Shown in pieces: positions 5,476 through 26,296 of a stretch of 26,296 nucleotides of DNA (within the stretch, counting starts at the first letter, position 1; each line of letters starts with the position of its first letter). The notes beneath the pieces are model-generated. The model did not search any database, was not told the origin of the DNA, and saw only the letters and a list, made by a program, of their open reading frames with translations. The stretch spans positions 1-26,296 of IMG/VR virus record IMGVR_UViG_3300035698_032533; one strand, given 5' to 3'. Origin of the DNA: a virus. The translations under genes and the position numbers were made by a program.

Positions 5476-5840
5476 AACGAATACTCTTTATCATGAGTCA
5501 CCCAGAAGCTGATTTAAAAGAATTGACCACTTGCTTGGAAACTCACCCCAATATCTCTTGTTTTTTAACAGGACAGGGCTATCATCACCCTGATGACTTG
5601 GAATATTTAACTGCTCAAATTCACAAGAAAGACAATTCAGCGGCCATCTGGGCTGACATGATCCTTCACAACAAGGACTTTTCCTGTCGAGCATTAACCC
5701 AATGTTGTCATTTTCTTTACTGGGCACAGAATCCCACAGAATATCGAATGGCTGGTTTGAAACAATGGTTCAAGAGGACGGGTGGTTTGTGGAATCCAGT
5801 TCTAACAGAAATCAATTCTTTTTTTGAAACCGCTTTTTGA
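5472..5840 (+). CDS. Unidentified 122-residue protein, translationally coupled to the HNH gene
   Basis: The ATG overlaps the HNH stop codon (ATGA), so the pair form a small operon. The protein begins MKRILFIMSHPEADL, a short beta strand followed by a turn, and has D-x-I-L-H-N-K (near residue 62) and a Cys pair (CRALTQCC). The layout faintly recalls small sulfotransferase-like phage proteins, but the phosphosulfate-binding loop is not convincing. Its last 39 bases overlap the end of the convergent 2H phosphoesterase gene. I cannot assign a function. Confidence 0.6.
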   Translation: MKRILFIMSHPEADLKELTTCLETHPNISCFLTGQGYHHPDDLEYLTAQIHKKDNSAAIWADMILHNKDFSCRALTQCCHFLYWAQNPTEYRMAGLKQWFKRTGGLWNPVLTEINSFFETAF

Positions 5841-6356
5841 GGAGAACACAACATGATCAGTTGAAATCTTCTTTCCAGCCCAAAGCTCTAAATTTTTATG
5901 TTTCCAGCCTTTACCTTTTTTCACATAAGCGATAGTCAGATGGGGCTGATAATCTCCATATCTTTCAGTGTAGGGAACCGTAGTGGCCAACTTCTTGTTT
6001 AATCTTTCGAGGTCTTCGCTGATTACATTAATTACCACCACATCAAACTTAGCCGGATTGGTGAAAATCTCGACCCGTCCTAACCGCACTTGAATAGGTC
6101 GTTCTTTTTTAAAGAGAGCTTCTACTTGGTCAGGTTTATTGGAATGTAGTCCATAGAGAATGGTAATATGGATCTCGTCTTCTCGACCGAATGTAGGTTC
6201 GGTTTGACTTACGAAGATATCATCATCAGAGATATGTTCTCTTCCCCACTTGATGATTTCATCTGAAAGAGGGTTGGCGACATCAATATGCACTGAAGAA
6301 AAACTATAATTAACATTTTGCATTTGAGGATATTTAGCAGAAATAGCCTCAATCAT
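5802..6356 (-). CDS. 2H phosphoesterase (LigT / 2'-5' RNA ligase family)
   Basis: Two H-x-T motifs mark the family: HIT at 63-65 (EIHITILYG) and HLT at 139-141 (YQPHLTIAYV). The length of 184 residues is typical, and the C-terminal strand VVFSSKSGFKK is usual for LigT folds. Such enzymes cut or form 2'-5' or cyclic phosphate bonds in nucleotides and RNA; in phages some degrade host signalling nucleotides or process RNA. The substrate here cannot be told. The start overlaps the stop of the preceding gene by eight bases. A start at the ATG of residue 12 is possible. It lies between terminase and portal. Confidence 0.88.
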   Translation of the reverse strand: MIEAISAKYPQMQNVNYSFSSVHIDVANPLSDEIIKWGREHISDDDIFVSQTEPTFGREDEIHITILYGLHSNKPDQVEALFKKERPIQVRLGRVEIFTNPAKFDVVVINVISEDLERLNKKLATTVPYTERYGDYQPHLTIAYVKKGKGWKHKNLELWAGKKISTDHVVFSSKSGFKKRIDFC

Positions 6357-6726
6357 TCAAAATTTCCGGGTTGGTTTCTTGGGATTGCTTTTCCAATTGG
6401 TCCAATTTACTCAACTTTGCTTTTTCAGCTTCGATCATAGCGTTCAATTGAGCCAATGATCGTTGTTGAGCTTCTGGAGTCATGGGTGATGCTGCTAGTT
6501 GAGCGGTACCTGCCTCAATATTCCCCCACCAACCCTGAAATTGATCTTGTGTCATCTTTTTTCTTTCTTCTTGTTTTTTAGATACCCGATCTAATTTTTT
6601 AATAGCTCTACGTATGTCTCCACGAGCTTCAGATACAGCTTGATTGTTGGGCATTGAATTGTATGCCACGTTCAAAGCTTGGCTCAAAAGGTTCTTAGCC
6701 ACATCAAGTTGTTTAATGTTTTTCAT
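6349..6726 (-). CDS. Helical charged protein between terminase and portal
   Basis: This 125-residue protein is almost wholly alpha-helical by composition, with Lys/Glu-rich segments (residues 45-60) and a C-terminal coiled-coil-like stretch (NAMIEAEKAKLSKLDQLEK). It contains the short motif FQGWWGNI near residue 64. It starts four bases before the stop of the upstream endonuclease gene (ATGA-type overlap) and overlaps the phosphoesterase start. Position suggests a head-assembly or packaging accessory protein; no family is recognised. Confidence 0.7.
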   Translation of the reverse strand: MKNIKQLDVAKNLLSQALNVAYNSMPNNQAVSEARGDIRRAIKKLDRVSKKQEERKKMTQDQFQGWWGNIEAGTAQLAASPMTPEAQQRSLAQLNAMIEAEKAKLSKLDQLEKQSQETNPEILND

Positions 6727-7829
6727 CTTTCCTCACATTTTCTTTCAAAATAATTCATTCCCTTATCGCTTTTATCTATACCCTTGGCGACATGTCCCAA
6801 TTCACTATATTTAGGGAAACGACCTAACCGTTGAATTACAGTTTTCAACTCGGCAATTACATTCTGTTCGTTGTTCCAGTAACCGTATGGTCGTTTGGTC
6901 CTTTTGCCTGTGACAACTTCTTTGAAATAACCATAACCTCCATGGGTTTTAATAGAACTAGCTAAATCACTACGTTTGATTTTTTGCAACTCACGATCAC
7001 AAGGAAAATGCCCAAGAGATTTAGCAACAGACTTTAATTCAGCGATAATTCTGTCCTTAGAAAATTCTTTGGTTTTAGGAATGCAATTGAGTAATTTAGA
7101 AAAATAACGAAATCCACCAAAATTACGTATTGCACGAATCAAGTCATCTCTTTTTATGTTTCTTAATTGGTTAGACGTAGGCATATCTCCAATTTCATTG
7201 ATAATTTCCCGAAGTTCTTTTAAAACAGTTTTTTCATTCCAGTAATCTAATTTTCTTCGATTAAATATGGGGTACTTGACTTGTTTATCATTTGACAAAA
7301 TGCCAAATTGGTTCAATTTGTTTTTGAATAAAGTTTGCAGTTCGTCGGAATTCAATTTGAAATCGGCACCTTCAAGTGATAATAAATCAAGATGGTGTTG
7401 TTTGTATAATTTCTCTTTTAACTTCCTTCGTTCACCATAATTATTGTAATATTTGCTACCTGCTGAACTTATGCCCCAAATTTCGATATACACATTTTTT
7501 ATCTTAAAGTCATAGCGGCATTTACTTCCGCTACAAATAAAGTCATCTGTGTCATGAGGAATATTGTTCAAAAACAAATATTCATCAAAAAGATATTCGT
7601 AATAACTTGAAAGAATATGCCCATCAGAAGCCTTGTGGGATTTTCTTATATTTAATCCAGCTTGTGATACCACACATGGATAACCTCCAAGGACTTTTAT
7701 TCCTTGGGTAAAAGCTCGACCATGTTCTTTATACATGATTGTATATCCGGGCACAAAACCTTTATCGGCAATTTTGTTTAGATAATTTTTCGCTGATTCT
7801 ATGTCTTTCCAAATATTTTTAGTATCCAT
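6723..7829 (-). CDS. Probable homing endonuclease, PD-(D/E)XK-like core with three repeats
   Basis: I place the start at ATG 7829 (368 residues). The open frame reaches back to 7916, but that part overlaps the terminase end and a hairpin. Residues 76-121 read YYEYLFDEYLFLNNI...KCRYDFKIKNVYIEIWG, matching the Vsr/EDxHD-type nuclease pattern (D107 in YDF, E116 in YIEIWG). Residues 198-247, 258-306 and 320-368 are three copies of a DNA-binding repeat of the homing-endonuclease-associated kind (ELKxVxxxLGxFPxxxEL, then GGYGYF). It directly follows the terminase gene, as homing genes in phages often do. No GIY-YIG, HNH or LAGLIDADG motif is seen. Confidence 0.72.
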   Translation of the reverse strand: MDTKNIWKDIESAKNYLNKIADKGFVPGYTIMYKEHGRAFTQGIKVLGGYPCVVSQAGLNIRKSHKASDGHILSSYYEYLFDEYLFLNNIPHDTDDFICSGSKCRYDFKIKNVYIEIWGISSAGSKYYNNYGERRKLKEKLYKQHHLDLLSLEGADFKLNSDELQTLFKNKLNQFGILSNDKQVKYPIFNRRKLDYWNEKTVLKELREIINEIGDMPTSNQLRNIKRDDLIRAIRNFGGFRYFSKLLNCIPKTKEFSKDRIIAELKSVAKSLGHFPCDRELQKIKRSDLASSIKTHGGYGYFKEVVTGKRTKRPYGYWNNEQNVIAELKTVIQRLGRFPKYSELGHVAKGIDKSDKGMNYFERKCEER

Positions 7830-7844
7830 ACCATATAATAGTAT

Positions 7845-7879
7845 GTTGCCCTCCAAATTCTCGAAGAATTTTTGGCAAC
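7845..7879 (-). promoter_or_regulatory. Hairpin after the terminase stop, before the endonuclease gene
   Basis: Arms GTTGCC (7845-7850) and GGCAAC (7874-7879) enclose a second hairpin, AAATTCT (7855-7861) and AGAATTT (7865-7871), with a three-base loop. It begins six bases after the terminase stop codon and contains a GGAGG that could be hidden by folding. An AT-rich ACTATTATATGG follows just before the ATG at 7829. It may limit read-through translation of the endonuclease or act as a weak terminator. Confidence 0.45.
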
Positions 7880-7884
7880 AATTA

Positions 7885-9705
7885 TCACCACCCGAACTCA
7901 CGAAGTAACTTATCATTTTTACGTTTAAACCCAGAAGAAATACTTGGAAAATTATCCGATCTATTCATCAACTCAAGTAATTCTGCATCGTCAGGATTGA
8001 GCCATTCTTCCGGCATTCCTTTCACCAATTCTTCTTTAATTTCCTCCATGATTTCCGCTTTAAACGCTTCAGTGAATTCTTCTTCTGAACCTGCTCCTAC
8101 AGGAACATGTCGCATTCGAGAGTCACGAGCGTACAAAGCGAGACACAAAGCCATAATCGCATCATCGTGAAAACCCTTTGATGCTTCTGCTTTTCTTGTT
8201 TGAGCATTCCATATAAACCCTTTAAGTTCTTTCACAAAACGCCGACTTCGAATAGCAATACTTCTATTAATCAAGCGAGTTTGCATGGTTTCCAAGAATT
8301 TTGACCGATTACTTTGTGTTGTCTTGATGCCAGGATTGAGATTCTTACCAGCGCCTTGAGTGCTTTCAAAGATATTATCATAAGCGAATTCGTGCAACAA
8401 CTTTTCTAAAATCAACAAACCTACACTTTGGCTCTCCACTACGATACAAGCACTATTGTAAGTTTGTCCAATCATGACTAACACTTGTGCAAAATTGTGT
8501 GGTGGCACTTCGCTACTGTAAAATTCAGCTACCTGTTCGCAAGTCACTGCATCAATTACCTCAAAACAACAATTATCACCTTCTTCTCCCATACCTTCGG
8601 CACCATCTGTTCCGATGATATAATCTCTGCCATCAACTGGTTCTCGCCAAATATGGAGAGCACCTTTTTGAAAATCCTCTGCTCTTGCTTGTTCTCGGAT
8701 TTCATCAAGATTATTCCAATGTGGGAAAAGCCGACGAAGGGGATCTATTTCTCGGGTAGTAAGATCGAGATCATTAATGATTTCTGGATCAATGTAAGAA
8801 TCACCAGCGCCCAAGAAGTCACGCATAACTTCTTGCAACCAACCTTTTTCACCAAGTTGTGCCCGAGTTTGTTTGACCCAATCTTCATCGTCATAGTCTG
8901 GATGTTCCCAGTAATCGAGTTCGATAATATTGAAGTCGTTTTGGGGTGGTCGTTTTTCTGCTCCTTTGAAAATGTCATAATACCAATTGCCGACACCATT
9001 GACCGTAGACACACAGATGCAATGTCCACCAGTACTGATCGTGGGGAACATAGCTTTCCAGTGTTTGTCCATTTGTGGAATGAACGCAGCTTCATCCAAA
9101 ATAAGATAAGTAATGGATCTACCACGAGCGGCTTCCGGGGTATAGAAAAACAACTTACAACCAGTATCAGAAAAGATTTTCTGGTGATCGTTGTTTTTCT
9201 CCATTTCAGGTCTCATCCAATGGGGCAATTCCTGCATGGCACGTTTTACAATTTCTCCAGCAGCAATGGCTTCACGATCAGACTTAGACAAAACCATAAT
9301 AGTTTCATCTAGTTTGAACAAGCATCGCCACAAAGACCAAATTACCGTAATGGTTGTCAGACCACCTTGACGGAATTTAGAAAGAATATTGAAACGATGT
9401 TTCTCATATTCTGAGATCACTCGTTTCTGATACTTATAGATGATGAAAGGAACTAATCCTCTTTTTGGGTGGGCGATCTTAACATACTTATGACAGAAGT
9501 ATGAGAAAGACATTGCACACTTAATCAGCTCTTTTTGTCGAACTTCAGGTGTGTATTCCTCGATGTCCTCGAAAGGTTCCATCGGGTCAACTTCCATCTC
9601 ATATTTGTTAAACGAATAATATTTGGAATCATATTCATTGAGATAAAACTCTGTTAAATCAGAATATCTTCCCCTCCAATTAGGATCTATATCTTTAAAC
9701 GGCAT
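7885..9705 (-). CDS. terL: Terminase large subunit (T4 gp17-like packaging ATPase/nuclease)
   Basis: The 606-residue protein starts at ATG 9705 (GGAGG nine bases upstream), not at the further-upstream frame start. The ATPase half has a Walker A-like loop SKFRQGGLTT (109-118), Walker B LILDEA (201-206) and coupling motif VSTVNG (232-237). The nuclease half has IIGTDGAEG (D367), VVESQS (E424) and FHDDAIMAL (D514/D515), the RNase H-fold metal ligands. Length equals T4 gp17 (610). It drives DNA into the head through the portal and cuts the concatemer. The Walker A loop lacks the usual lysine before TT (T4 has LGKTT). It heads the packaging block, and an endonuclease gene follows directly. Confidence 0.96.
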   Translation of the reverse strand: MPFKDIDPNWRGRYSDLTEFYLNEYDSKYYSFNKYEMEVDPMEPFEDIEEYTPEVRQKELIKCAMSFSYFCHKYVKIAHPKRGLVPFIIYKYQKRVISEYEKHRFNILSKFRQGGLTTITVIWSLWRCLFKLDETIMVLSKSDREAIAAGEIVKRAMQELPHWMRPEMEKNNDHQKIFSDTGCKLFFYTPEAARGRSITYLILDEAAFIPQMDKHWKAMFPTISTGGHCICVSTVNGVGNWYYDIFKGAEKRPPQNDFNIIELDYWEHPDYDDEDWVKQTRAQLGEKGWLQEVMRDFLGAGDSYIDPEIINDLDLTTREIDPLRRLFPHWNNLDEIREQARAEDFQKGALHIWREPVDGRDYIIGTDGAEGMGEEGDNCCFEVIDAVTCEQVAEFYSSEVPPHNFAQVLVMIGQTYNSACIVVESQSVGLLILEKLLHEFAYDNIFESTQGAGKNLNPGIKTTQSNRSKFLETMQTRLINRSIAIRSRRFVKELKGFIWNAQTRKAEASKGFHDDAIMALCLALYARDSRMRHVPVGAGSEEEFTEAFKAEIMEEIKEELVKGMPEEWLNPDDAELLELMNRSDNFPSISSGFKRKNDKLLREFGW

Positions 9706-9789
9706 TGATAAATACCTCCAACTCACTGTTACCACAAGTAGTTATTAATGAAATTGCAATTTTTCGCATAATTCTTGCGAGGAGATGAA

Positions 9790-10851
9790 ATGAAAATCCA
9801 ACATTCTTTAATCCTATGTGTCCTCATGATGAGTGTTTTATCAGGGATTATGGCTTACAATAAGTTTGAAAACGTAAGCCACACACCAGTTGTAGAGCGA
9901 CCAACTTCAGAACTGCCCAACAAACCCAATGTGGCGATACCATCACCAACTTTTGAGCAGGCTTTAACTTCCATTAACGCTGATGAACTTCGTGTTCATG
10001 TAGAATGGCTAGCCGATGATGCCAGGGAAGGTCGCATGAGCGGTACCCCTGGATGTGACGCAGCAAGAGACTACATCAAGAAAGAGTTGGAGGGATATGG
10101 TTTACCCACCATGTATGATGAATTCAGTGTTCGAACTGGAGATAAGTCCGCAGAGAATGTTTATGCTTGGATAGAAGGAAGCGAATATCCAGATGATGTT
10201 ATTGTTGTGGGTGCTCACTATGATCACATAGGAATAACCAGGGCTGGAATCAACAATGGTGCTGACGATAATGCGTCTGGCACGGCTGCGGTTTTAGCAA
10301 TGGCGAAAGCACTGGCCCCTTTGAAGGGGCAACTCAAAAGAACTGTGGTGTTTCAGTTATATGCAGGTGAAGAACTGGGACTGGTAGGAAGCAGCCATTA
10401 TGTAAGTGATCCACTTTTCCCTAAAAATAGCCCATCAATGTCTAAACATATCTTTATGGCAAACTTGGACATGATTGGTTATGCTAAATTTGATGAACGA
10501 GCATTCCAAGTTGTAACTTCTAATCCTGTGGGGGATTTAGTTCAACAACTTTCGGTCAAATATCCTTTTGCTTCTAGGGTTACCCAAACAGGTGGATCGG
10601 GATCAGATCATGCTCCATTTCGCAGCAAACGTGTTCCAGTAATTTTCTTACATACTGGGCTTCATGCTAATTACCACAAACCCACTGATGATGCAGATAA
10701 GTTGAACTATAAAGGTGCTGAGCAGGTTACTCGTTATGGACTTGATTTTTTATGGAATATTTGTCAAAATGGTCTTTTAAAGGATGCAATCTACATTAAA
10801 TCTCAGGAAGAAGTGTGGTTGGATCATGGCAAGGAGCCATTTCTCAAATAG
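9790..10851 (+). CDS. Secreted or anchored M28-family zinc aminopeptidase
   Basis: The start is ATG 9790 with GAGGAG five bases upstream. Residues 6-22 are a hydrophobic signal peptide or anchor with no lipobox Cys. The M28 fold shows all metal and catalytic positions: AHYDHIG (H143), NNGADDNASG (D159/D160), YAGEELGL (E194/E195), ANLDMIG (D227), GSDHAPF, and HANYHKPTDD (H296). Family members remove N-terminal residues from peptides, or act on glutamate peptides, in the periplasm or outside the cell. A phage copy with an export signal is unusual. It is the first rightward gene after terminase and overlaps the CYTH-like gene. A promoter should lie in 9706-9789. Confidence 0.93.
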   Translation: MKIQHSLILCVLMMSVLSGIMAYNKFENVSHTPVVERPTSELPNKPNVAIPSPTFEQALTSINADELRVHVEWLADDAREGRMSGTPGCDAARDYIKKELEGYGLPTMYDEFSVRTGDKSAENVYAWIEGSEYPDDVIVVGAHYDHIGITRAGINNGADDNASGTAAVLAMAKALAPLKGQLKRTVVFQLYAGEELGLVGSSHYVSDPLFPKNSPSMSKHIFMANLDMIGYAKFDERAFQVVTSNPVGDLVQQLSVKYPFASRVTQTGGSGSDHAPFRSKRVPVIFLHTGLHANYHKPTDDADKLNYKGAEQVTRYGLDFLWNICQNGLLKDAIYIKSQEEVWLDHGKEPFLK

Positions 10852-11267
10852 GATGCACAATCCACTTGCCTTGGCAGGAGCCACATAGGACAATTCGGAT
10901 TAAACAGGGTTATTTGGCTAAATCTGAGACAATAAATGTTCGGATACGAAGTGAATTCGATAGTAACGGGCAAAAATATTTCTCTACCATTAAACAAAAA
11001 GTGGAAGGTAGAACTGTTGAGATCCATCAAGAAATTGATCATATGGATTTCAAGCTACTTTGGCAGGTTTCGACTGCAAAAATAACAAAAACTCGACATG
11101 TGCTTATGGGTGGAGTTGGTGAAAAATGGGAATTGGATGTGTTTTATCATGAAGATAAAATCTACTTTGTTATGGCGGAAATAGAATTCTCTGAAGAAGA
11201 GAATTGTCCTGAATTGCCAATTTTCTTAAAAAAAACACGTATTGTACAAAGTACCCTTGACAGATAA
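10815..11267 (+). CDS. CYTH-like domain protein, N-terminus reduced
   Basis: The GTG at 10815 (AGGAAG just upstream) gives 150 residues, overlapping the M28 gene end. The CYTH pattern is clear from RTIRIKQGYLA onward: VRIRSE, YFSTIKQK, EIDHMDFKLLW, ITKTRH, KWELDVF and FVMAEIEFSEEE. CYTH proteins form a beta tunnel that binds triphosphates (inorganic triphosphatase, class IV adenylate cyclase, thiamine triphosphatase). The N-terminal EIERKF strand, which supplies metal-binding glutamates, is missing; the first 25 residues are unlike it. The gene is either a truncated remnant or a non-catalytic binder. No better start is seen. Confidence 0.68.
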   Translation: MVGSWQGAISQIGCTIHLPWQEPHRTIRIKQGYLAKSETINVRIRSEFDSNGQKYFSTIKQKVEGRTVEIHQEIDHMDFKLLWQVSTAKITKTRHVLMGGVGEKWELDVFYHEDKIYFVMAEIEFSEEENCPELPIFLKKTRIVQSTLDR

Positions 11268-11373
11268 TCGATTTTCCAACACAATGTTGGGAGACGTGGA
11301 ATACACCACAAATCTTTACGAACGAGTGTTGCTGGAATATCAGCATGGAGATTAACTCAGAATGGAGTCAACA

Positions 11374-11715
11374 ATGACAACTACTAAAGAAAAGAGAAAG
11401 GTATACGAGATTGCTTCCAAGAAACCGGTAGCAAGATTCTATTACCAAGGGACACACAGCCATCCAGTACGGAGAACTGTTGTGATCATCGAAGAAACCT
11501 CTACCACGATCACTGGCTACGAATTCCGTTGCGGCAACGATGTTCGCACGGTAAACGACGCTTTGAGCGAGGTTAAGAGTTATCGTAAGGATCGTATCGC
11601 CCGATGGGGCGACTACAGTCGCCTGCGAATGACCTCAAGGACATTCATGAAAGATCCTAATCGAACAACACTGGAACGATTTCCAATCGTGTCCATGTTC
11701 AATGACGGGGCGTAA
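11374..11715 (+). CDS. Small WYL-like domain protein
   Basis: The protein is 113 residues from ATG 11374, chosen because GGAG lies six bases upstream; ATG 11362 is a weaker alternative. The segment VARFYYQGTHSHPVRRTVV, then GYEFRCGN and VKSYRKDRIA, resembles a WYL-type beta domain, which in bacteria senses ligands or nucleic acid and often sits in defence regulators. The C-terminal 35 residues are basic (LRMTSRTFMKDPNR). GC content is higher than in the neighbours. A strong terminator follows. The family call is tentative. Confidence 0.7.
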   Translation: MTTTKEKRKVYEIASKKPVARFYYQGTHSHPVRRTVVIIEETSTTITGYEFRCGNDVRTVNDALSEVKSYRKDRIARWGDYSRLRMTSRTFMKDPNRTTLERFPIVSMFNDGA

Positions 11716-11735
11716 GGGTTGGTTGTGGACATACG

Positions 11736-11767
11736 ATAAACAAAGCCCCGCAAGGGGCTTTGTTTAT
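11736..11767 (+). terminator. Rho-independent terminator
   Basis: A perfect 14-bp stem (ATAAACAAAGCCCC with its complement) closes a GCAA tetraloop and ends in a T-rich tract on the plus strand; the reverse strand also ends in T's. It stands between the WYL-like gene and the next rightward gene, whose ribosome site (AAGGAG) follows immediately. Confidence 0.88.
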
Positions 11768-11781
11768 TTAAGGAGAAAGAT

Positions 11782-12228
11782 ATGTATGAAAAGTTCTTAA
11801 AACGATTACAGCAAATCAGAGAGTGTGAGGGGAACAATTACGACCTCACAATACATGAAGAAAAAGCGTTTCAAAGAGGTGTGCGTGAAGGAGAAACTGT
11901 TTTAGAGGCGATTGCACGCAACATGGTGGAGGTTCTAGAAGAAAAGGATTCAGATCAAGCCAATCCTGTTCCTTACCTTTCATGGGATGCTCAAGTAAGT
12001 TTTGAGCACAAGGGTTTTGGTCCACAAATTGTCAATTTGCCAGGGGTTTTGGGGCATACTCCCGAAGAGGCCCAAGAAGCTGCTGGAAGAGAATTTGAGC
12101 AAAACATGTCGGACTATGCTGATGAAGATAATGTGACCAAATGGGAAGTTAGAGTTCGTCCCTCGTCCCTCACAAAATGCGACAAATCATCGAAGAGTTC
12201 GTTCAGTCCCTCCGATCCGACATATTGA
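11782..12228 (+). CDS. Unidentified 148-residue protein
   Basis: The ATG at 11782 has AAGGAG seven bases upstream. The N-terminal 50 residues are helical and charged. Residues 64-115 alternate strands and helix (YLSWDAQVSFEHKGFG, then HTPEEAQEAAGREFEQNM). This recalls HicB-like small domains, where a beta sheet is followed by a helix that begins with EEA, but the match is weak. The last 20 residues are Ser/Lys-rich. A bidirectional terminator follows. Confidence 0.65.
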   Translation: MYEKFLKRLQQIRECEGNNYDLTIHEEKAFQRGVREGETVLEAIARNMVEVLEEKDSDQANPVPYLSWDAQVSFEHKGFGPQIVNLPGVLGHTPEEAQEAAGREFEQNMSDYADEDNVTKWEVRVRPSSLTKCDKSSKSSFSPSDPTY

Positions 12229-12263
12229 AATCGACGTATTTTGATTTCAGTCTTAACACAAAT

Positions 12264-12287
12264 GTGGCTCCTCGTTTGAGGAGCCAC
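12264..12287. terminator. Bidirectional terminator between convergent genes
   Basis: A 10-bp perfect stem (GTGGCTCCTC / GAGGAGCCAC) with a GTTT loop is flanked by a partly paired AACACAAA / TCGTGTTTG extension. It lies between a rightward and a leftward gene that point at each other, so it can serve both. Confidence 0.75.
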
Positions 12288-12351
12288 TCGTGTTTGATAG
12301 GAAGGAAAATTATACAATTTGTAATTTTCCCAAATGGTTGCCTTCTTTACA

Positions 12352-12978
12352 TTACATCACAAAAGCCATATAGCCAAAGAAAAGAACTTGAGCAACTAGA
12401 ACTACACCTAGAACAACATTGACCAAAGTATCTTTTTGTTTTTTATCTGCTACATTCTTTGCCACTGCACCTTGAGCATTAAAGTAAGGCTCTTGTGCCA
12501 CGGGTACTAGTTTGGGTTCAGTTTCGAGTTCGGGTTCTTCGTAGTCGTATTCTGGCGGTCCCATGCTTTCCATCATAGCTTCTACGCCAGCAACTACGCC
12601 ATCAGAAATCAACTGAGCGATTTCTTCTTTACGAACATAATCTCCATCAACCACCTTGGCATGATCTGCCACACCAATTTTTTCTCGAATCTGTAGTGGC
12701 ACTTCTGGTTCAAGTGATCTCACTTCAACTTGAGTCACTTCACCATCTTGAATAGTTTCCCGAGTCTCTTTTGCTACAATTTGTTTTCGCTCTCGAAGGA
12801 TTCGTTCTTCGAGTTTTCGAGGTCTCCGTTCCTCTGCAAAAACTTCTACCACTTCGTTGCCATTTTCGTCATTAAAAATGTGTCGCTCTGCTTGACGACC
12901 ATCGGGAAGAGTAATATTCTCCACCCTTTTGTTCTCGCCATTACAGCAAGGGCAGCGGTCATGATGCTTATTAGCCAT
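12352..12978 (-). CDS. Tail-anchored membrane protein with an N-terminal zinc-type CPCC motif
   Basis: The start is ATG 12978 (GGGAGGGAG immediately upstream), giving 208 residues; the longer upstream frame is not supported. Residues 1-15 contain HHDRCPCCNGE, a likely metal site. The middle is charged, with a helical ERRPRKLEERILRERKQ and a conserved-looking REKIGVADHAKVVDGDYV. The last 25 residues are one hydrophobic helix (LVNVVLGVVLVAQVLFFGYM) with only three residues after it, so the protein should be anchored in the inner membrane with its bulk in the cytoplasm. It follows the 13052-13624 gene in the same direction after 73 bases. Role unknown. Confidence 0.78.
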   Translation of the reverse strand: MANKHHDRCPCCNGENKRVENITLPDGRQAERHIFNDENGNEVVEVFAEERRPRKLEERILRERKQIVAKETRETIQDGEVTQVEVRSLEPEVPLQIREKIGVADHAKVVDGDYVRKEEIAQLISDGVVAGVEAMMESMGPPEYDYEEPELETEPKLVPVAQEPYFNAQGAVAKNVADKKQKDTLVNVVLGVVLVAQVLFFGYMAFVM

Positions 12979-13051
12979 TTCTCCCTCCCTGTGGGTTTTA
13001 ATAGAAAGACGATCTATAACTGCATTAGTATCTATGCTAAGACTTGGATTT

Positions 13052-13624
13052 TTACACTCCCCAACGGCGTTGTAAATGCCGCCAGAAACTTTCTTTTTTC
13101 CGTTCGATGTCTTCTCCAATTGTTACCTCTTCCACTTTCTGCTTGTTTTTAGCTTCTTTTTTGGCTGTCTTATACAAACGTTCTATTTTATCCTCCCACT
13201 CACTTAGGGGGAAGTAAGCATGTAATTCTCCAGCAATTTCTTTGTAAACTTCGTATCCCTTATAAGATACTTCAAGTTTCTGATTATGATGCCAAAATTT
13301 TATTTCGAGATGCATTCCACGACTTAAACCATCAAATACCCAACCTTCGTCTTGTGTAGGAACATCGTCCATTTCTTGGATTTCGTCTCTCCACATCTCC
13401 GGTCCATCCTGCCCACTCACAGTCTTTTCTCGTTCTGACTCAATTGTTTCATAAGGGTCTTCTAGGTAATTAACATCCATTAGTCCACTACCTTGTCGAA
13501 TGATGGGACTACCTAAAACCTTGGCAATCATACCCATTTTTCCAGTAATTCCCATAAGGTTTTTAGCAGTTGCTTCCATGGTTCGTTTTTCACGAATAAC
13601 TTTTTCCTTTTGAGTCCAATTCAT
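13052..13624 (-). CDS. Unidentified 190-residue protein
   Basis: ATG 13624 is preceded by AAGGAG at good spacing and by a TATATATCC element. The first 65 residues are basic and helical, and residues 65-95 are acidic. A folded part follows with GWVFDGLSRGMHLEIKFWHHNQKLEVSYKGYEVY and FPLSEWEDKIERLYKTAKK: two strands, then helices, with the general look of a small phage beta-hairpin domain. The C-terminus is very basic (RKKESFWRHLQRRW). No known family is recognised. It is divergent from the metalloprotease gene across 41 bases. Confidence 0.65.
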   Translation of the reverse strand: MNWTQKEKVIREKRTMEATAKNLMGITGKMGMIAKVLGSPIIRQGSGLMDVNYLEDPYETIESEREKTVSGQDGPEMWRDEIQEMDDVPTQDEGWVFDGLSRGMHLEIKFWHHNQKLEVSYKGYEVYKEIAGELHAYFPLSEWEDKIERLYKTAKKEAKNKQKVEEVTIGEDIERKKESFWRHLQRRWGV

Positions 13625-13640
13625 GTTCGTCTCCTTGTTA

Positions 13641-13659
13641 AGGATATATAGAGTAGGAG
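13641..13659. promoter_or_regulatory. Shared AT-rich promoter element between divergent genes
   Basis: The 41 bases between the two ATGs contain GGATATATAGAG. Read left it is CTCTATATATCC ahead of the 13624 gene; read right it sits just before AGGAGG of the metalloprotease gene. It matches the TATATAAT-like motif seen elsewhere in the window. Confidence 0.4.
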
Positions 13660-13665
13660 GTAATT

Positions 13666-15060
13666 ATGAGCAGTAGAACAAGGAGTAAGTTTCCACGTCG
13701 TCGTCGCCCTGTGCCACGACCACAACCCCAACTCAATGATAAACCAATTCAATATGTCATGAATGACATGACAACCCCTAACTTCATTAAAGTAATATCG
13801 CCACCACAACCTGTAGCAACACCAAAATTTGCAGTACAAGGATATGTGGGTGGGGGGTTTCCCAGAGGAAGCATTCACAATTTAGCAGCCGATTGTTTTG
13901 TTACAATCAACAACGCTCTGCAATATTACCAACAATTCTTTCAGATGAATCGTTGGGCTGTTGTGAATCTATTAACGGTAATTCCAGTTGCGGGAAAAGA
14001 CTTAAATGCTTTTTACGACAGAAGATCATTGCAATTCTTTATGTTTGGACATCCACAAGTAGGAACGATCTTTACTGCGGAGTCATCGGATATTGTGTCT
14101 CATGAATTAGGACACGCCATTTTAGATGCTTTGAGACCAGATACATGGTCTGCTGCGGCTTTAGAAGTATGGTCTTATCATGAAGCATTTGCTGACCTCA
14201 CTGCAATGTTGAACATTATGGGGCATGATGAGGTGTTACAAAGAGCACTTAAACAAACCAACAACACCATGCAAACAACCAACATTATTTCAAAATTGGC
14301 AGAACATGTGGGCAAAGCGATTTTTAAATTTTCAGGGCCGAAAAGTGGTCGCAACAAAAATTGTTTGCGAGAGGCACTGAATAAGTTCAACTATATTCCG
14401 CCCAATAGATTGCCCAAAGAGGCTCCACACAACCGACTGTCTTCTGAGTGTCATAGTTTTGGAAGAATTTTTCTGGGTGCTTTTTATGATTTGTTGGTAG
14501 AAATCTATAATGTCGAAAAACAAAACATGAGTCCAATAGAAGCTTTACGACATGCCAGAAATGCTTTGGCTGTTAGAACAATTCAAGCTTCTCAACAGGC
14601 CGGTTTGAATGTCCGGTTTTATGAATCAGTGGCGAAAACAATGTTGTGGGTTGATCAGACTAAACATGGAAGTAAATACCAAGAGGTTATGAGAAAGGTT
14701 TTTATGCAAAGAAATCTCATTAGGCCACAACTGCTAATGCTTAATGCACCAGAGTGTGATAATGCAGATAACATTGTGACTACTCAAAGCACATTGAGTA
14801 TTAAGCTTTCTGATCACATGATGAGAGTCCAATCAACTTCTAATCCCTTGTATGACGTGGAATTAGAAATACCTCATCAACAAATGTATCTTTACAACGA
14901 AGGTAATCCCATCGATGCCGTGCTCGTTTCTGATGAAGAAGCCATTGCGGCGGCACAAGATATGGTGGACTATCTACATGCAACAAATGGCGTTAGTGAT
15001 GATCCCAGTACGCCTTTTGAAATTAAAAACGGAAAACTGACGAGAACTCATTTTTCTTAA
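13666..15060 (+). CDS. HExxH zinc metalloprotease (gluzincin, thermolysin-like)
   Basis: The 464-residue protein has a very basic N-terminus (SKFPRRRRPVPRP) and no signal peptide. HELGH at 146-150 gives two zinc ligands and the catalytic Glu147. E173 in WSYHEAFAD, 23 residues on, is the expected third ligand of gluzincins (compare NEaxxD in thermolysins). H-S-F-G-R-I-F near residues 268-274 may supply the second-half His. The last 130 residues are an extra domain ending in acidic and mixed sequence. AGGAGG lies upstream. A cytoplasmic or virion-carried protease that processes phage or host proteins is plausible; the target is unknown. It leads the small-gene cluster to 16281. Confidence 0.85.
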   Translation: MSSRTRSKFPRRRRPVPRPQPQLNDKPIQYVMNDMTTPNFIKVISPPQPVATPKFAVQGYVGGGFPRGSIHNLAADCFVTINNALQYYQQFFQMNRWAVVNLLTVIPVAGKDLNAFYDRRSLQFFMFGHPQVGTIFTAESSDIVSHELGHAILDALRPDTWSAAALEVWSYHEAFADLTAMLNIMGHDEVLQRALKQTNNTMQTTNIISKLAEHVGKAIFKFSGPKSGRNKNCLREALNKFNYIPPNRLPKEAPHNRLSSECHSFGRIFLGAFYDLLVEIYNVEKQNMSPIEALRHARNALAVRTIQASQQAGLNVRFYESVAKTMLWVDQTKHGSKYQEVMRKVFMQRNLIRPQLLMLNAPECDNADNIVTTQSTLSIKLSDHMMRVQSTSNPLYDVELEIPHQQMYLYNEGNPIDAVLVSDEEAIAAAQDMVDYLHATNGVSDDPSTPFEIKNGKLTRTHFS

Positions 15061-15069
15061 GGAGGCATC

Positions 15070-15363
15070 ATGATTGAACAAGGACCAACTCAACCTGAAT
15101 ATACACGTTATTTTAAGCCAGAAAACAATGATGGTTGTGGCTGTGGTGGAGACAAAAGCTGTGATGCTCCCAGTAATGCCACAGAAGGCTCTCCAAGATG
15201 GGAGTGGGAACAAGTCTATGGTAAACTCGTCACCTATTTCTATAAAGAGCATGATGCCAATGGGCATTCGTTTATAAGGATAGAAAGGAATACATGCCCA
15301 ATTGAAGCAAATCGACCTAGACAACAATCCTGTTGTTCGTTAAGATATAAAGTCTTACGCTAA
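15070..15363 (+). CDS. Small Cys-rich protein
   Basis: This 97-residue protein begins nine bases after the metalloprotease stop, with AAGGAGG before the ATG. An N-terminal GCGCGGDKSC cluster (residues 23-32) and a C-terminal Cys pair near residue 88 could bind metal or form disulfides. The middle, WEWEQVYGKLVTYFYKEHD followed by SFIRIERNTC, looks like a small beta fold. Function unknown; co-expression with the protease upstream suggests a partner or substrate, but that is only inference. A long hairpin follows. Confidence 0.7.
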   Translation: MIEQGPTQPEYTRYFKPENNDGCGCGGDKSCDAPSNATEGSPRWEWEQVYGKLVTYFYKEHDANGHSFIRIERNTCPIEANRPRQQSCCSLRYKVLR

Positions 15364-15371
15364 AAATATTA

Positions 15372-15406
15372 AGAATGGACTTGTTAATTTTTAACAAGTC
15401 CATTCT
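15372..15406 (+). terminator. Long perfect hairpin after the metalloprotease operon
   Basis: Sixteen-base perfect arms (15372-15387 and 15391-15406, AGAATGGACTTGTTAA and its complement) enclose a TTT loop. The downstream bases are AATATACTC, without a real T-run, so it could be a terminator of either strand or an mRNA-stabilising or processing site. Confidence 0.6.
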
Positions 15407-15445
15407 AATATACTCATATCTGGGTTTTTGATGGAGAATCACACC

Positions 15446-15679
15446 ATGTCATGCAGAAATGAATATATGCCCGAATGGCTTAAAGAAGCTCATTACAATG
15501 CTTACGATGATGAAGAAAATCCTTATTACGATGATGAATGGGATGACGATTTAGATGAAGACGACGAAGACGATGATGACGACGAAGACGATGATGACGA
15601 ATGGTATAAAGAGGATGATGACGACTCGGACGACGAATGGGATGATGATGAGGATGATGAGGATGATGATTGGGAATGA
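15446..15679 (+). CDS. Hyperacidic Asp/Glu-rich protein
   Basis: I start at ATG 15446 (GGAG eight bases upstream), giving 77 residues. After a 20-residue ordinary head (MSCRNEYMPEWLKEAHYNAY) nearly every residue is Asp or Glu, broken by Trp/Tyr (DDEW repeated four times). The net charge is extreme. Such tails can mimic DNA, bind basic proteins or hold metal ions; nothing selects between these. The codon runs (GAT/GAC/GAA) could expand by slippage. It overlaps the next gene by ATGA, so translation is coupled. Confidence 0.75.
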   Translation: MSCRNEYMPEWLKEAHYNAYDDEENPYYDDEWDDDLDEDDEDDDDDEDDDDEWYKEDDDDSDDEWDDDEDDEDDDWE

Positions 15680-16281
15680 ATCTCACTATTGAGTATTTAA
15701 TTCGTACAGGAACGATCCAAAACTTTTTTATTCCCCCTTGTACAATTTGCGTGGAACACTGGTTTGGTGCCAAAATTGTGGTGGGTATTGAAAGAGCGGG
15801 AGAACAGTTCAGAATCATCCACTGGCATTTAGATGAATCCTCTCAGGAAAATAGATTACCTAAGTCTTATGTTTATTACATTCATCCTGATGAAGTTTTC
15901 ATCAACGATAAGGTGATTCTACCGGACCATGTGCTATTGCCCTACCGAGAAAGACCAATAGACACTTCACACAACAGATATAATCATCCGATGAACGAAC
16001 CGACTTACAACTTCTTTTTAGAGGAGTTGTTGAATTCCTCTTTACATCACGCCACAAGAGAACAATGGCTTTGGCGATCATTTGTAAAATTGAATATCAA
16101 AAAGCCATTACTGGACTTAATGCTTTATGAATTTGCAAAATCAAGAATTGTGTTATGGGAACAAAACATAGTACGTGAGGAACACAAGGAGGAATGGATG
16201 ACTTGGTGTGTTTGGAAAAGACGGTTACTGAAGACAAGAAAAGTCGCTCCAGAATTACTCTTTAACAAAGCTTACAATTAG
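15676..16281 (+). CDS. Unidentified 201-residue protein coupled to the acidic protein
   Basis: The ATG at 15676 overlaps the stop of the acidic gene. Residues 1-90 appear to be a beta-rich domain (IVVGIERAGEQFRIIHWHL, SYVYYIHPDEVFINDKV). Residues 115-201 are helical with several Trp (EQWLWRSFVKLN, EEWMTWCVWKRRLL), ending basic. No catalytic motif or membrane segment is seen. Coupling with a strongly acidic partner and its own basic C-terminus suggest the two might interact. It meets the 16278-16505 gene tail to tail with a four-base overlap. Confidence 0.65.
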   Translation: MNLTIEYLIRTGTIQNFFIPPCTICVEHWFGAKIVVGIERAGEQFRIIHWHLDESSQENRLPKSYVYYIHPDEVFINDKVILPDHVLLPYRERPIDTSHNRYNHPMNEPTYNFFLEELLNSSLHHATREQWLWRSFVKLNIKKPLLDLMLYEFAKSRIVLWEQNIVREEHKEEWMTWCVWKRRLLKTRKVAPELLFNKAYN

Positions 16282-16505
16282 ACCTTTTTCATCTTTTTTT
16301 TCATAGCTTTACGATAGAATCTAGCGTCTAAATACTTTTTAGTAGGACTTTTGCCGGTTTGGGGAGGTTCATCACCATAAGTTGGAAATGCTCCAACACC
16401 TCTGGTCGCATCGCTAGCAGCCATAGCCTCTGGATTCTCAACTGCTCCAGGTCCACCACCCGGTCCAGCTAAACTCTCATTTTGTAACCAAGTTTTAAAT
16501 TTCAT
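16278..16505 (-). CDS. Short protein with a T4-like capsid-targeting N-terminus
   Basis: The 75-residue protein starts MKFKTWLQNESLAG, close to the capsid-targeting leader of T4 internal head proteins (MKTYQEFIxEA...), which directs them into the prohead before cleavage by the prohead protease. The middle is Gly/Pro/Ala-rich and disordered. The end is very basic (FYRKAMKKKMKKV), fitting a DNA-binding internal head peptide. The related start MKFRDFVNEET occurs at 21407. A weak AGGA lies upstream, and the divergent virion-type gene begins only 17 bases away. The internal-head-protein role is inference. Confidence 0.7.
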   Translation of the reverse strand: MKFKTWLQNESLAGPGGGPGAVENPEAMAASDATRGVGAFPTYGDEPPQTGKSPTKKYLDARFYRKAMKKKMKKV

Positions 16506-16522
16506 ACTATCCTATATATGAT
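16506..16522. promoter_or_regulatory. Very short divergent promoter region
   Basis: Only 17 bases separate two divergent start codons. They hold CCTATATATGAT, a version of the AT-rich motif usable in either direction. A transcript of the rightward gene from here would be leaderless or nearly so, since no Shine-Dalgarno precedes its ATG at 16523. Confidence 0.4.
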
Positions 16523-17053
16523 ATGAACAATAAAGTAAATTGGAATGGCTTACTGAAAGTCTTGGAAATTCAGCACAGAGATGCAGATGGCAATATTCTC
16601 TGGGAAGAGCGAAATATCTTAAACATCCTGCATTTAGATGGAGAAGAATACCTCCTTCGTGCAGCATTCCAAGGTGGAGCAGTAAGTACTATCATTCCCG
16701 ACAATTACTACTTGGGATTAGACAATCGTACAACTATTGCTGTCACAGATACAATGGATGATTTGGCAGGAGAACCTTCTGGAAGTGGCTATCTAAGACA
16801 AGCCGTAAGTTCTAGTGGGGATTTTTCACTCAACTTTGAGGGAACTCACTTTGTGGCAACCAGCCCAATTGTAGCATTCAGAGCGACTACGGGTGATTGG
16901 GGTCCAGTGAATAATTTATTCATGACAGATAACAGTGATAACACTGGATATTTAATTGCCACAGCTACTTTGAGCACAACTGTCCAGGTGTCCGCTGGCA
17001 ATTCAGTGACCGCTCGCATAGGTTTGCAATTAAGAAACTGCGATTCAACTTAA
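16523..17053 (+). CDS. Beta-rich virion protein (tail or decoration type)
   Basis: This 176-residue protein opens NWNGLLKVLEIQHRDADGNILWEERN, then LHLDGEEYLLRAAF, YYLGLDNRTTI, EPSGSGYLRQAV, GDWGPVNNLFMT and a final strand GNSVTARIGLQLRNC. This order of short strands with conserved Asn/Gly/Trp is what I know from small phage virion proteins found with tail or head-decoration genes. No signal peptide, no Cys cluster. The start has no ribosome site. It shares a nine-base overlap with the convergent gene. Structural role is likely; exact location unknown. Confidence 0.75.
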   Translation: MNNKVNWNGLLKVLEIQHRDADGNILWEERNILNILHLDGEEYLLRAAFQGGAVSTIIPDNYYLGLDNRTTIAVTDTMDDLAGEPSGSGYLRQAVSSSGDFSLNFEGTHFVATSPIVAFRATTGDWGPVNNLFMTDNSDNTGYLIATATLSTTVQVSAGNSVTARIGLQLRNCDST

Positions 17054-17533
17054 ACTATGTTGAAGTTTATCCATGTCATTGATTTGTACAAAATGTACTA
17101 ATTGAAGTTTTCGGCCTTCGTGCTGAATTTCGCTATGTTCCCTATAACTCATATGAGCCGATCCACCATCTATTGTGTCCAATAGATTTTTGGAAGAAAT
17201 TTCTGGGATATGTTTGTCGTACAATTTTTCCAACTTATCTGGAGATTTGAATACCAATTTTCGATATTCCTCATCGCTTATATCCAAAGCTTTGCCACCC
17301 CTAAAGGGTAAAGCTAAATCATACCCATGTGTTCTAACAACAATAGGCGTTTCTTTTTTGGTGTTACAAATGGTGTATCGACAGAAAACCTCTTTGGCTG
17401 GTTCCGAGGTGGCTTTATCCATATACCATACAGGTACAGAAATCCCAATTACCACCAACTCTATCCCTGCATGAAGAGCATATCTTTGTTTACGTGTGAG
17501 ATGAATGAGATGTTGAATACTTAAGTTTAACAT
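17045..17533 (-). CDS. Unidentified 162-residue protein
   Basis: The frame begins MLNLSIQHLIHLTRKQRYALHAGI after a modest AGGTC-type site. The N-terminal 25 residues read as a helix-turn-helix-like segment. VIGISVPVWYMD and TPIVVRTHGYDLALPF form a beta part, and a helical part ends in EHSEIQHEGRKLQLVHFVQI. No enzyme motif is visible. It diverges from the trypsin-like gene across 38 bases that hold TATATAAT. Function unknown. Confidence 0.65.
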   Translation of the reverse strand: MLNLSIQHLIHLTRKQRYALHAGIELVVIGISVPVWYMDKATSEPAKEVFCRYTICNTKKETPIVVRTHGYDLALPFRGGKALDISDEEYRKLVFKSPDKLEKLYDKHIPEISSKNLLDTIDGGSAHMSYREHSEIQHEGRKLQLVHFVQINDMDKLQHSLS

Positions 17534-17543
17534 AATTTCGACC

Positions 17544-17551
17544 TATATAAT
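17544..17551 (+). promoter_or_regulatory. TATATAAT promoter-like element for the trypsin-like gene
   Basis: TATATAAT lies 20 bases before the ATG, with AGGAGG in between. No -35 hexamer sits at normal spacing, as in T4-type late promoters, where only the -10-like box matters. It is the clearest copy of a motif repeated across the window. Confidence 0.45.
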
Positions 17552-17571
17552 GTAGTATCTTAGGAGGGGTT

Positions 17572-18489
17572 ATGAACAAATTACTGTATGCGGGATGCAT
17601 TTTGGTGTTTACCTGTATCTGTTTAATGTTGACACATTCACACCAAAATATAGTTTATGATTTAGAAATTCATCCTATTGATAACATGCCTCTCGTGGGG
17701 GATGATCCTTTCGCTGCTATTGCCCATGGTGGATCGCCAATTGAAAAAAGAGATATTCAATATCGACATTGGTTATCCGCAGGTTTAAAAATCAAGGTGA
17801 GAAGCGCCTCTGGTTCAGGAACTATTATATATTACAATCCCGAAGATGGCTATGCCTACATTCAATCTTGTGGACATCTTTGGTCAGGTAACATGACTGC
17901 CGAAGATGGCAAACGTCGCAATGTTCAATGTACCGTTCAAACGTGGTATCATAACGAAACCAAGCTTGATCAGCCCCAAGAATATCCTGCCGAAGTTTTG
18001 TATTACAGTAACAGTCGTGGAAGAGATGTTAGTTTGTTGCGATTCAAGCCCGATTGGAAGCCAAATTATTTCCCAATTGCCCCTGAAAGTTTTACTTTCA
18101 ATCAAAATGATCAACTTAATTCTGTAGGATGTGATGGAGGACGAGAAGTTGCTCACTATGATGTTCGTTATATTGGTATGCGTGATGTGGGTGAAGGTTG
18201 GAAAGATCTCGTTACTACAGAAAATAGCCCCAGACCAGGAAGATCTGGTGGCGGTTTAATGACTGAAAACTTTTATGTTGGAATCTGTTGGGGAACTTCT
18301 AGTTATGATGGTAGTGGTAACGGTTTTTTCACACCTCTCTCTACCATCAGACAATACAATAAGCAAAATGGTTACGGATGGCTCAATGAAGTCAATGTAA
18401 GTTGGGCTAGGATGATTCCTATTAAGGATCGCAACAACCCACAAGGAGAATATCCGCAAAACTATATTCCATTACCCAAGAGACGTTGA
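17572..18489 (+). CDS. Membrane-anchored or secreted trypsin-like serine protease (S1/PA clan)
   Basis: Residues 4-20 form a hydrophobic signal anchor (LYAGCILVFTCICLMLT). The chymotrypsin-fold triad is readable: H102 in SCGHLW, D152 in GRDVSLLRF and S225 in RPGRSGGGLM (GxSGG motif), with ASGSGTIIYY as the first conserved strand. At 305 residues it is normal for the family. The enzyme would cut proteins in the periplasm or outside the cell. It has a strong AGGAGG. Its last 18 bases overlap a short leftward gene. With the M28 and HExxH genes it makes a third protease class in this region. Substrates unknown. Confidence 0.9.
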   Translation: MNKLLYAGCILVFTCICLMLTHSHQNIVYDLEIHPIDNMPLVGDDPFAAIAHGGSPIEKRDIQYRHWLSAGLKIKVRSASGSGTIIYYNPEDGYAYIQSCGHLWSGNMTAEDGKRRNVQCTVQTWYHNETKLDQPQEYPAEVLYYSNSRGRDVSLLRFKPDWKPNYFPIAPESFTFNQNDQLNSVGCDGGREVAHYDVRYIGMRDVGEGWKDLVTTENSPRPGRSGGGLMTENFYVGICWGTSSYDGSGNGFFTPLSTIRQYNKQNGYGWLNEVNVSWARMIPIKDRNNPQGEYPQNYIPLPKRR

Positions 18490-25294: not shown

Positions 25295-26296
25295 TTAAAT
25301 ACTTCCTGCGTTTTCAGCGGCAACAAGGCATCCTCGTGCCACCGAATAAATAGGGTCTTCTGGTCGAATCACTTCGCCAATATCAACATTCATTTCCGAA
25401 GCTGTCATTAAACTTCTAAACAAAGTATCAAAACCCGGAGGACTTGCACTACCACCAGCAACAACAACATCAATGGGATGATCCAATCGAGCTTTCTTGT
25501 CCTGATTTTCAACCAAGCCTTTTTTGATTCCGCCGATGGTCTTTTCGATCATTAACTCATATTGTGTCTTGATGGCTCTTTCTACAAGAGTGGTTGGTTC
25601 TTTATTTAGATCGATCTTATGTTTTTCCTTGTTGATAAAAGCAATCGATTCACCAGTTGCTCTTGCAGCTTGTTTGTCAATCCAGTCACCAGAGTTCACA
25701 ATGGAGAAACTAAAGACTTCTGCTCCAAACAATGAGAAAGCCACATTAACCATTCCGGCACCACAACTAACACCAATGCCCGTGAACATCTTATCACCTA
25801 ATTCGGCATAAACCAAAGCCATGGCTTCGTTAATTGGTCGAGCGTCTACCATATAGCCTTTGTCTGACTTATATGCTTTGAAAATGGCTTCCAAAAGCTT
25901 GGCATGATATTCTGCATCTGTTTCGGCATTAATGGCATTTGCTGGAACACTGTAATATAGAAGCTCTTTGTCGTGGGTTACATTGTCCAAAAGGCTATGC
26001 ATCATGATGTTCATGATTTGAAAAGCGTCTTTCTCAGACGGATTAACACAACCATCTTGCATAGGTCGCTTTAAGACCAATTGATTCATCGTATATGCCA
26101 TGTTAATGGCGGCTTCACCAAGAGCATATGCTTTATTCACATCTTCTCGGTGAATGAGTGGAACTCCTGCTTTTTTCATCATATTGAATACGAATTGATT
26201 TTCTAGCTCCATCTCTAAAAAGGCATTCACTTCTCGTTTGTAAACGAGATCCCCTTCGTTGTTGCGTTTGCAGGTGATGAGATTATATGTACCAGC
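25295..26296 (-). CDS. Actin-like ATPase (ParM/actin fold), N-terminus outside the window
   Basis: The frame is open to the right edge, adding AGTYNLITCKRNNEGDL before the GTG at 26230, so that GTG is not the real start. The pieces fit an actin-fold ATPase: GTYNL as the phosphate-1 loop, GIGVSCGAGMVNVAF as phosphate-2, SGDWIDKQAARATGE after it, and VVVAGGSASPPGF as the adenosine motif. At least 333 residues are present. Phage and plasmid homologues form filaments that position or segregate DNA, or organise replication. Asp/Gly positions of phosphate-2 are replaced by Ser/Cys (VSCGAG), a variation that may matter for ATP use. The first residues lie beyond the window. Confidence 0.85.
   Translation of the reverse strand, partial: AGTYNLITCKRNNEGDLVYKREVNAFLEMELENQFVFNMMKKAGVPLIHREDVNKAYALGEAAINMAYTMNQLVLKRPMQDGCVNPSEKDAFQIMNIMMHSLLDNVTHDKELLYYSVPANAINAETDAEYHAKLLEAIFKAYKSDKGYMVDARPINEAMALVYAELGDKMFTGIGVSCGAGMVNVAFSLFGAEVFSFSIVNSGDWIDKQAARATGESIAFINKEKHKIDLNKEPTTLVERAIKTQYELMIEKTIGGIKKGLVENQDKKARLDHPIDVVVAGGSASPPGFDTLFRSLMTASEMNVDIGEVIRPEDPIYSVARGCLVAAENAGSI

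Follow-up and report, generated by a model that had tools for sequence, protein, structure and literature searches.

The fragmentary viral record IMGVR_UViG_3300035698_032533 (IMG/VR), analysed here as a window of 26,296 bases, encodes three unrelated predicted proteases on its plus strand within 8.7 kb: an M28 aminopeptidase, an M4-like gluzincin metalloprotease and a serine protease of HtrA/chymotrypsin fold. The M28 enzyme and the serine protease are predicted to be exported, and host-envelope proteolysis by the phage is regarded, with moderate confidence, as the most likely role. The window also holds a T4-type portal gene and a T4-type large terminase gene, and was therefore assigned to a tailed phage. 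Head maturation is the role for which phage proteases are chiefly known. No paper on the trio, or on the C-terminal tail described below, was found in searches of the open-access literature. The initial annotation of this DNA had listed three unrelated proteases with intact active sites on one strand within 9 kb, and its coordinates and residues proved to be correct.

Relatives, which come from metagenomic records that are for the most part fragmentary, were sampled through the large terminase, which was chosen because it is independent of the proteases. The frame for co-occurrence comprised 55 terminase-relative loci, with a stricter subset of 22 loci having at least 8 kb on either side of the terminase. 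Sixteen long records (at least 53 kb), picked by length from the contigs in hand, were searched whole; the 70-kb record of locus L010, which matched the L007 record throughout, was left out. A second set (n = 21) comprised 20 records picked because the M4-like gene was present, together with the genome of one metagenome-assembled genome (MAG) contig. Residue conservation was counted over the window and 344 loci, identical sequences being counted once. IMG/VR relatives were taken as the best 80 of 130 candidate stretches for the M4-like protein, among them records of 458, 527 and 532 kb, and as the best 80 of 113 for the serine protease. Export segments were called by scripted hydropathy rules rather than by a trained predictor; in six control families, N-terminal export segments were found in 1-10% of members (1/79 to 8/86).

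The M28 protein was identified with Pfam Peptidase_M28 (E 8e-40, 137 bits against a cut-off of 21.3), and the profile of its family matched PDB aminopeptidases down to E 5e-30. The catalytic-domain score and a full two-metal ligand set with general base (H143, D160, E194, E195, D227 and H296, numbered from the ATG at 9790, with the stop at 10851) place it in the family. These residues are kept in 38-40 of 40 sequences, the remainder being gaps and one decayed copy. The catalytic domain and metal ligands are like those of M28 aminopeptidases of known structure (PDB 2ek8 and 6ica, Aeromonas/Vibrio leucyl aminopeptidase type), from which the phage protein differs in its signal anchor, a Pro-rich stalk following the hydrophobic N-terminal stretch and a conserved C-terminal DHG motif of its own. 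The N-terminus was hydrophobic in 31/31 usable relatives (9/40 were set aside). Because a Lys or Arg always lies just past this stretch (within 8 residues in all 31), the segment looks like an uncleaved signal anchor. In a 234-kb relative, a second M28 copy (L100:3744-4691) is apparently decayed and lacks one metal ligand.

The serine protease matched Pfam Trypsin_2 (E 1.3e-7), and its triad (H102, D152, S225) is kept in 75/75 unique sequences. An AlphaFold model (mean predicted local distance difference test score, pLDDT, 82.8) aligned with DegP/DegQ at VIA Z 19 (root-mean-square deviation, rmsd, 2.8; 181-183 residues aligned), and the His-Asp-Ser triad lies in a two-barrel chymotrypsin fold, as in S1-type enzymes. 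The protease-domain fold, export and a PG-x-SGG active-site loop are common to this protein and HtrA, DegP, DegS and DegQ. It differs from them in that the PDZ domain expected of an HtrA/DegP family member was not found, the Pfam scan giving Trypsin_2 only; a linear C-terminal tail is present in its place, and the model is of low confidence beyond residue ~275. The residue six positions before the catalytic Ser governs specificity in chymotrypsin-fold proteases. This residue is Ser in 75/75 relatives, where trypsin has Asp, which argues against cutting after Lys or Arg. A hydrophobic N-terminal segment was found in 64 of the 65 usable sequences (of 75) and a plausible cleavable signal, by a crude rule, in 50/65; many relatives have an ordinary signal sequence with an AFAQ- or ATAE-like cleavage site. 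The protein had previously been described as a membrane-anchored trypsin-like protease. The chymotrypsin fold and the export segment stand, as does the export proposed for M28; 'trypsin-like' is to be read as fold only, and the anchor is better assigned the other way round, to M28. The 527-kb record of L140 (G033) contains two serine-protease copies (457587-458408 and 416813-417601).

For the M4-like protein, the Pfam Peptidase_M4 score was 26.6 bits against a cut-off of 22.4. The HExxH motif with its downstream Glu and active-site His (H146, E147, H150, E173 and H263 in the window) is invariant in 85/85 unique sequences. The AlphaFold model (pLDDT 90.6) aligned with the M36 enzyme fungalysin at VIA Z 27.0 (rmsd 2.7, 283 residues) and with thermolysin at VIA Z 23.0 (rmsd 3.5, 274 residues), so that the earlier description of the HExxH protein as a gluzincin is borne out. 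Searches of PDB sequences with the M4-like and serine-protease profiles gave no significant match, and the folds were therefore needed for identification. In the BFVD library of viral structures nothing matched the M4-like model at E<=0.001; the enzyme thus adds a thermolysin-type protease fold without a match there. The architecture appears to differ from that of secreted M4/M36 enzymes in several respects. No signal peptide was detected in the window protein, and the N-terminus was hydrophobic in just 6/83 relatives; no FTP/PepSY propeptide was matched by Pfam, and none is seen in the model, which opens with the catalytic fold (the fold match begins near residue 20-26). There is an additional C-terminal domain, and a Cys-rich part occurs either as an extension or as a separate protein. 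In the window the Cys-rich part is a small separate gene, and its fusion to the M4-like C-terminus in other clades was seen in the alignment and a motif scan of relatives; the Cys-rich profile matched inside the M4-like open reading frame (ORF) of a 595-kb phage (E 1e-8). An amphipathic N-terminal helix, visible in some relatives, was weak overall (mean z 0.85, 48 sequences) and absent in the window, and is not claimed.

The initial annotation had named absence of the trio from relatives as grounds for rejecting its proposal; on searching, the three genes were found together, and in synteny, in many large-phage contigs. All 22 stricter loci hold the M4-like gene; the serine protease occurs in 17 of them, M28 in 14 and the complete trio in 13. 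Over all 55 loci, whatever they covered, the corresponding single counts were 37, 38 and 26. The 16 long records gave 14, 12 and 9, with all three in 9, and the second set held the serine protease in 13 records and M28 in 8. The nearest annotated isolates by terminase have only about 30% identity to it. Against named phages, tblastn gave for the M4-like protein only the 595-kb metagenomic phage LR756511 and a single partial match, for M28 only distant partial matches, and nothing for the serine protease; both the serine protease and M28 were absent from the 30 kb of LR756511 examined. In a quick terminase tree, with long branches flagged, rows holding only the M4-like gene were mostly basal, and the serine protease and M28 occurred in the large remaining clade. 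Two absences in this tree (the serine protease of L014 and the papain-like gene, described below, of L033) are locus-end artefacts; the whole records hold both genes. The three genes are thus not obligately linked. The suggestion that all three work as a single unit is not supported: the M4-like protein has no export signal and is found in a basal lineage, the 595-kb phage included, where the other two are missing. Its best reading is as a probably cytoplasmic, older and separate activity that merely neighbours the exported enzymes. The picture is one of stepwise building, in which the M4-like gene would have come first and the exported enzymes later.

Each of the three genes is preceded by a purine-rich, ribosome-binding-like sequence. 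The ratio of nonsynonymous to synonymous substitution (dN/dS) between the window and its closest relative, L006, was 0.057 for the M4-like gene and 0.046 for the serine protease, within the range of other genes in the same comparison (0.021 to 0.20). For M28, the L006 contig starts past the gene, and synonymous sites were saturated against L002. Chance proximity and pseudogenes were rejected on the grounds of conservation and dN/dS. Pairwise distances correlated with those of the terminase at r 0.86 (M4-like), 0.92 (serine protease) and 0.72 (M28) over 19 loci, some near-identical, and 0/1000 permutations were as high. In the 11 records for which coordinates were tabulated, the proteases occupy 7-18 kb. 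The synteny map contains two movable blocks, one of the M4-like gene with its neighbours d and e, and one of a fibre/head-like gene, gene h and the serine protease gene; the latter block is inverted in some records. In the window, minus-strand genes lie between members of the trio (12352-13624, 16278-16505 and 17045-17533), and the trio is therefore not one operon. This arrangement, the different distributions of the three genes and the poorer tracking of the terminase by M28 are what would be expected if three enzymes of unrelated roles had been acquired independently and lay close only through a conserved genome region. We consider this very improbable, as M28 and the M4-like gene keep their order on one strand in 9/9 tabulated records holding both, despite inversions of neighbouring blocks.

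A role of the trio in head maturation was rejected. A separate S77 (T4 gp21-type) prohead protease was found in 14/16 long records, always above the curated cut-off, and the S77 profile found none in 14 control genomes. No trio member matched S77 in the Pfam scan. The prohead protease of these phages thus belongs to a different gene and family, head maturation needs no trio, and the three proteases are additional enzymes, in agreement with the original view that they are not of the head-maturation type.

In whole-record searches, weak matches to the last ~40 residues of the serine-protease profile were obtained in a different protein of two relatives. This is an exported papain-like candidate with a tail matching that of the serine protease (for example, L082:12770-13483 and L084:11374-12075). 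The candidate has about 230-260 residues, an N-terminal hydrophobic segment in 36/36 usable sequences and a papain/C39-like arrangement in which Q-C, H and N are invariant (39/39 sequences). Peptidase_C39 was matched in 1/9 members (E 0.077), the arrangement being otherwise judged by eye, and the profile gave no significant match among PDB sequences; the protein is treated as a candidate peptidase. It was present in 13/30 records searched whole, with two further records matching by tail only, and relatives are encoded at 44 IMG/VR loci. No copy was found in the window fragment or in G001, G004 and G011, three long records from the same clade as the window that were searched whole. The gene lies near the M4-like gene, downstream and on the same strand in 6/8 tabulated records that hold it.

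The common tail (IPIKDRNNPQGEYPQNYIPLPKRR in the window) comprises ~22 residues of the type IPI-x-D-R-N-x-P-Q-G-x-Y-x-x-D-Y-I-L-x-P. In a scan of 19,909 ORFs, a profile made from serine-protease tails only found seven papain-like tails (E 3e-8 to 6.5e-5), and a profile of papain-like tails found serine-protease tails down to E 5e-9; the best match outside both families with either profile was E 1.2. Among 44,729 ORFs, matches at E<1e-3 comprised 43 serine proteases and 26 papain-like proteins (unique C-termini), with none in other families. The profile was weak on the true serine proteases of L035, L040, L041, L043, L044 and L047 (E 0.08 to 5), the tail having diverged in that branch. A looser regular expression matched 56/73 serine-protease and 12/45 papain-like C-termini (counting loci truncated within the gene) and 3/9,659 unassigned ORFs; the reversed-tail control, not made unique, gave seven matches. 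In loci with both proteins, the state of one tail position (Pro or non-Pro) agreed in 17/18 clusters (14 x/x, 3 P/P, 1 P/x; Fisher p 0.005), which is only a hint, as the co-variation may simply follow phylogeny.

By sequence, the natural partner of the serine protease is this papain-like protein. As the short, poorly ordered tail occurs only on two unrelated exported protease-like proteins, it is most simply read as a tag by which both dock on, or are sorted to, a shared partner, and it offers a concrete handle toward that partner. We tentatively suggest, as a possibility that we hold to be somewhat doubtful, that large phages run their own extracytoplasmic proteolysis, with a private C-terminal tag directing two unrelated folds to the same envelope site or partner. 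The tail could instead mark a joint complex in which the enzymes mature the phage's own exported proteins, or the papain-like protein, rather than attack the host, and enzymes with an HtrA-type fold typically serve site-specific processing and quality control. This alternative was given a low probability: there are clades that have the serine protease and lack the papain-like protein, with G001, G004 and G011 among their members, and no conserved exported phage substrate was identified in this analysis.

Host-envelope proteolysis is preferred on the grounds that two exported enzymes of different chemistry have persisted over the whole span of terminase divergence, which points to a function beyond the cytoplasmic membrane of the infected cell. 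Once a cell is infected, the exported enzymes would cross its inner membrane through the Sec pathway and degrade proteins of the envelope. Through the shared 22-residue tail, the serine protease and its papain-like counterpart would be held at one site or by one partner, and the membrane-anchored M28 enzyme would trim the resulting peptides from their N-termini. The M4-like enzyme would act apart, inside the cell, and the papain-like candidate would be a fourth exported component added in one branch. The envelope would thereby be remodelled or stripped, through receptor removal, loosening before lysis or recovery of peptides and amino acids. It is plausible, and no more firmly held than that, that the window represents a lineage of large T4-type tailed phages with conserved proteolytic equipment aimed at the infected cell. 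If so, large phages would use proteolysis to control the state of the host envelope while infection proceeds, with implications for when lysis occurs, how receptors are removed and how resources are recovered. T4 Spackle (PMC7677548) is described as a protein of a T4-type phage that is exported to the periplasm and affects infection (superinfection exclusion); it is an inhibitor, unlike the phage proteases described here.

The same enzymes might serve nutrient recovery, the exported endoproteases and M28 turning periplasmic or extracellular protein into amino acids over a long infection. An endoprotease with an aminopeptidase is the classical pairing for complete digestion, the M28 relatives of known structure are secreted aminopeptidases, and the patchier distribution of M28 fits this role better than that of the serine protease does. 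We regard it as unlikely. Auxiliary metabolic genes are usually patchy, whereas the serine protease is near-core in its clade, and its low dN/dS and invariant NSPRPGRSGGGL segment suggest a specific substrate.

Several observations weigh against envelope proteolysis. M28 is patchy (14/22 terminase-selected loci, 8/21 in the second set), and the non-exported M4-like gene stands alone in the basal lineage. The hydrophobic segment of M28 is flanked by basic residues on both sides, so that its orientation, judged by hydropathy, is not certain. In addition, a virion-structural-like gene adjoins the serine protease gene, which makes a virion role possible; its product matched Pfam Gp80 at 27.9 bits (cut-off 27), and 6/26 relatives matched phrog_240 ('head protein'). 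With this gene staying beside it, the serine protease could be carried in the particle together with M28 to cut envelope proteins at entry, the N-terminus then being a membrane-insertion element rather than a Sec signal. The ordinary cleavable signals of many serine-protease relatives make this distinctly improbable, as do the consequences of Sec export, by which proteins leave the cytoplasm, the site of virion assembly.

Table 1. Features of the 26,296-base window (positions are those of the window)
Feature	Position	Strand	Basis
T4-type portal protein	1815-4118	-	Pfam/PHROGs
2'-5' RNA ligase-like/Acb1-like protein	5802-6356	-	Pfam
HNH-repeat homing-endonuclease-like ORF	6723-7916	-	
T4-type large terminase, marker for sampling relatives	7885-9735	-	Pfam/PHROGs
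M28 aminopeptidase, 353 residues, signal-anchor type (predicted)	9790-10851	+	Pfam Peptidase_M28, export segment
Gene d, C-terminally membrane-anchored (predicted tail anchor), adjoins e	12352-13119	-	Hydrophobic C-terminus
Gene e, conserved divergent neighbour of M4-like gene	13052-13624	-	Synteny
M4-like gluzincin metalloprotease, 464 residues, without signal peptide	13666-15060	+	Pfam M4, fold, HExxH
Small Cys-rich protein	15070-15363	+	Motif fused to M4-like C-terminus in other clades
Virion-structural-like protein (Gp80 fibre/head type), between M4-like and serine protease genes	16523-17053	+	Pfam Gp80
Gene h, conserved convergent neighbour of serine protease gene	17045-17533	-	Synteny
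HtrA/chymotrypsin-fold serine protease, 305 residues, predicted exported, without PDZ	17572-18489	+	Trypsin_2, fold, triad
Serine protease C-terminal tail, common to papain-like protein of relatives	18415-18486	+	Leave-family-out profiles, ORF scan
Repeat-rich protein, 944 residues	21889-24723	-	
Actin-family protein	25295-26296	-	Pfam Volactin

No reliable database family match was obtained for genes d, e and h. Gene e travels with the M4-like gene in the synteny map, and the C-terminus of the d product was hydrophobic in 64/70 unique relatives.

Among the other genes of the window, the portal protein carries an intein-splicing domain close to the N-terminus (Pfam Intein_splicing, E 1.2e-10); portal relatives align over nearly the full length, and the intein is therefore probably common to them. 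The 2'-5' RNA ligase-like/Acb1-like protein, of a type acting against the cyclic-oligonucleotide-based anti-phage signalling system (anti-CBASS), is encoded near the terminase, scored above both Pfam cut-offs and was found in 33 loci. The homing-endonuclease-like ORF overlaps the terminase 3' end and was found in only 2 loci of the first relative set. The 944-residue protein contains short motifs repeated in tandem over long stretches (PGGSQ-, PAAQA- and VDQ-type) and is poorly conserved in relatives. The actin-family protein (Volactin, E 8e-63) has counterparts in 25 of the loci in the first relative set.

Shine-Dalgarno (SD)-like sites were found before 56/108 ATGs of one relative, compared with 4/108 control positions, and this enrichment suggests an SD-using host. 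The only cellular-genome match to the serine protease was a phage-like contig of the same lineage (L126, RXKI01000042.1) within a MAG titled Neisseriaceae bacterium AWTP1-37. The contig is a possible host lead or a possible case of mis-binning, and was not used as a host assignment. Its actin-family relative reads as one ORF broken by an intein-like insertion.

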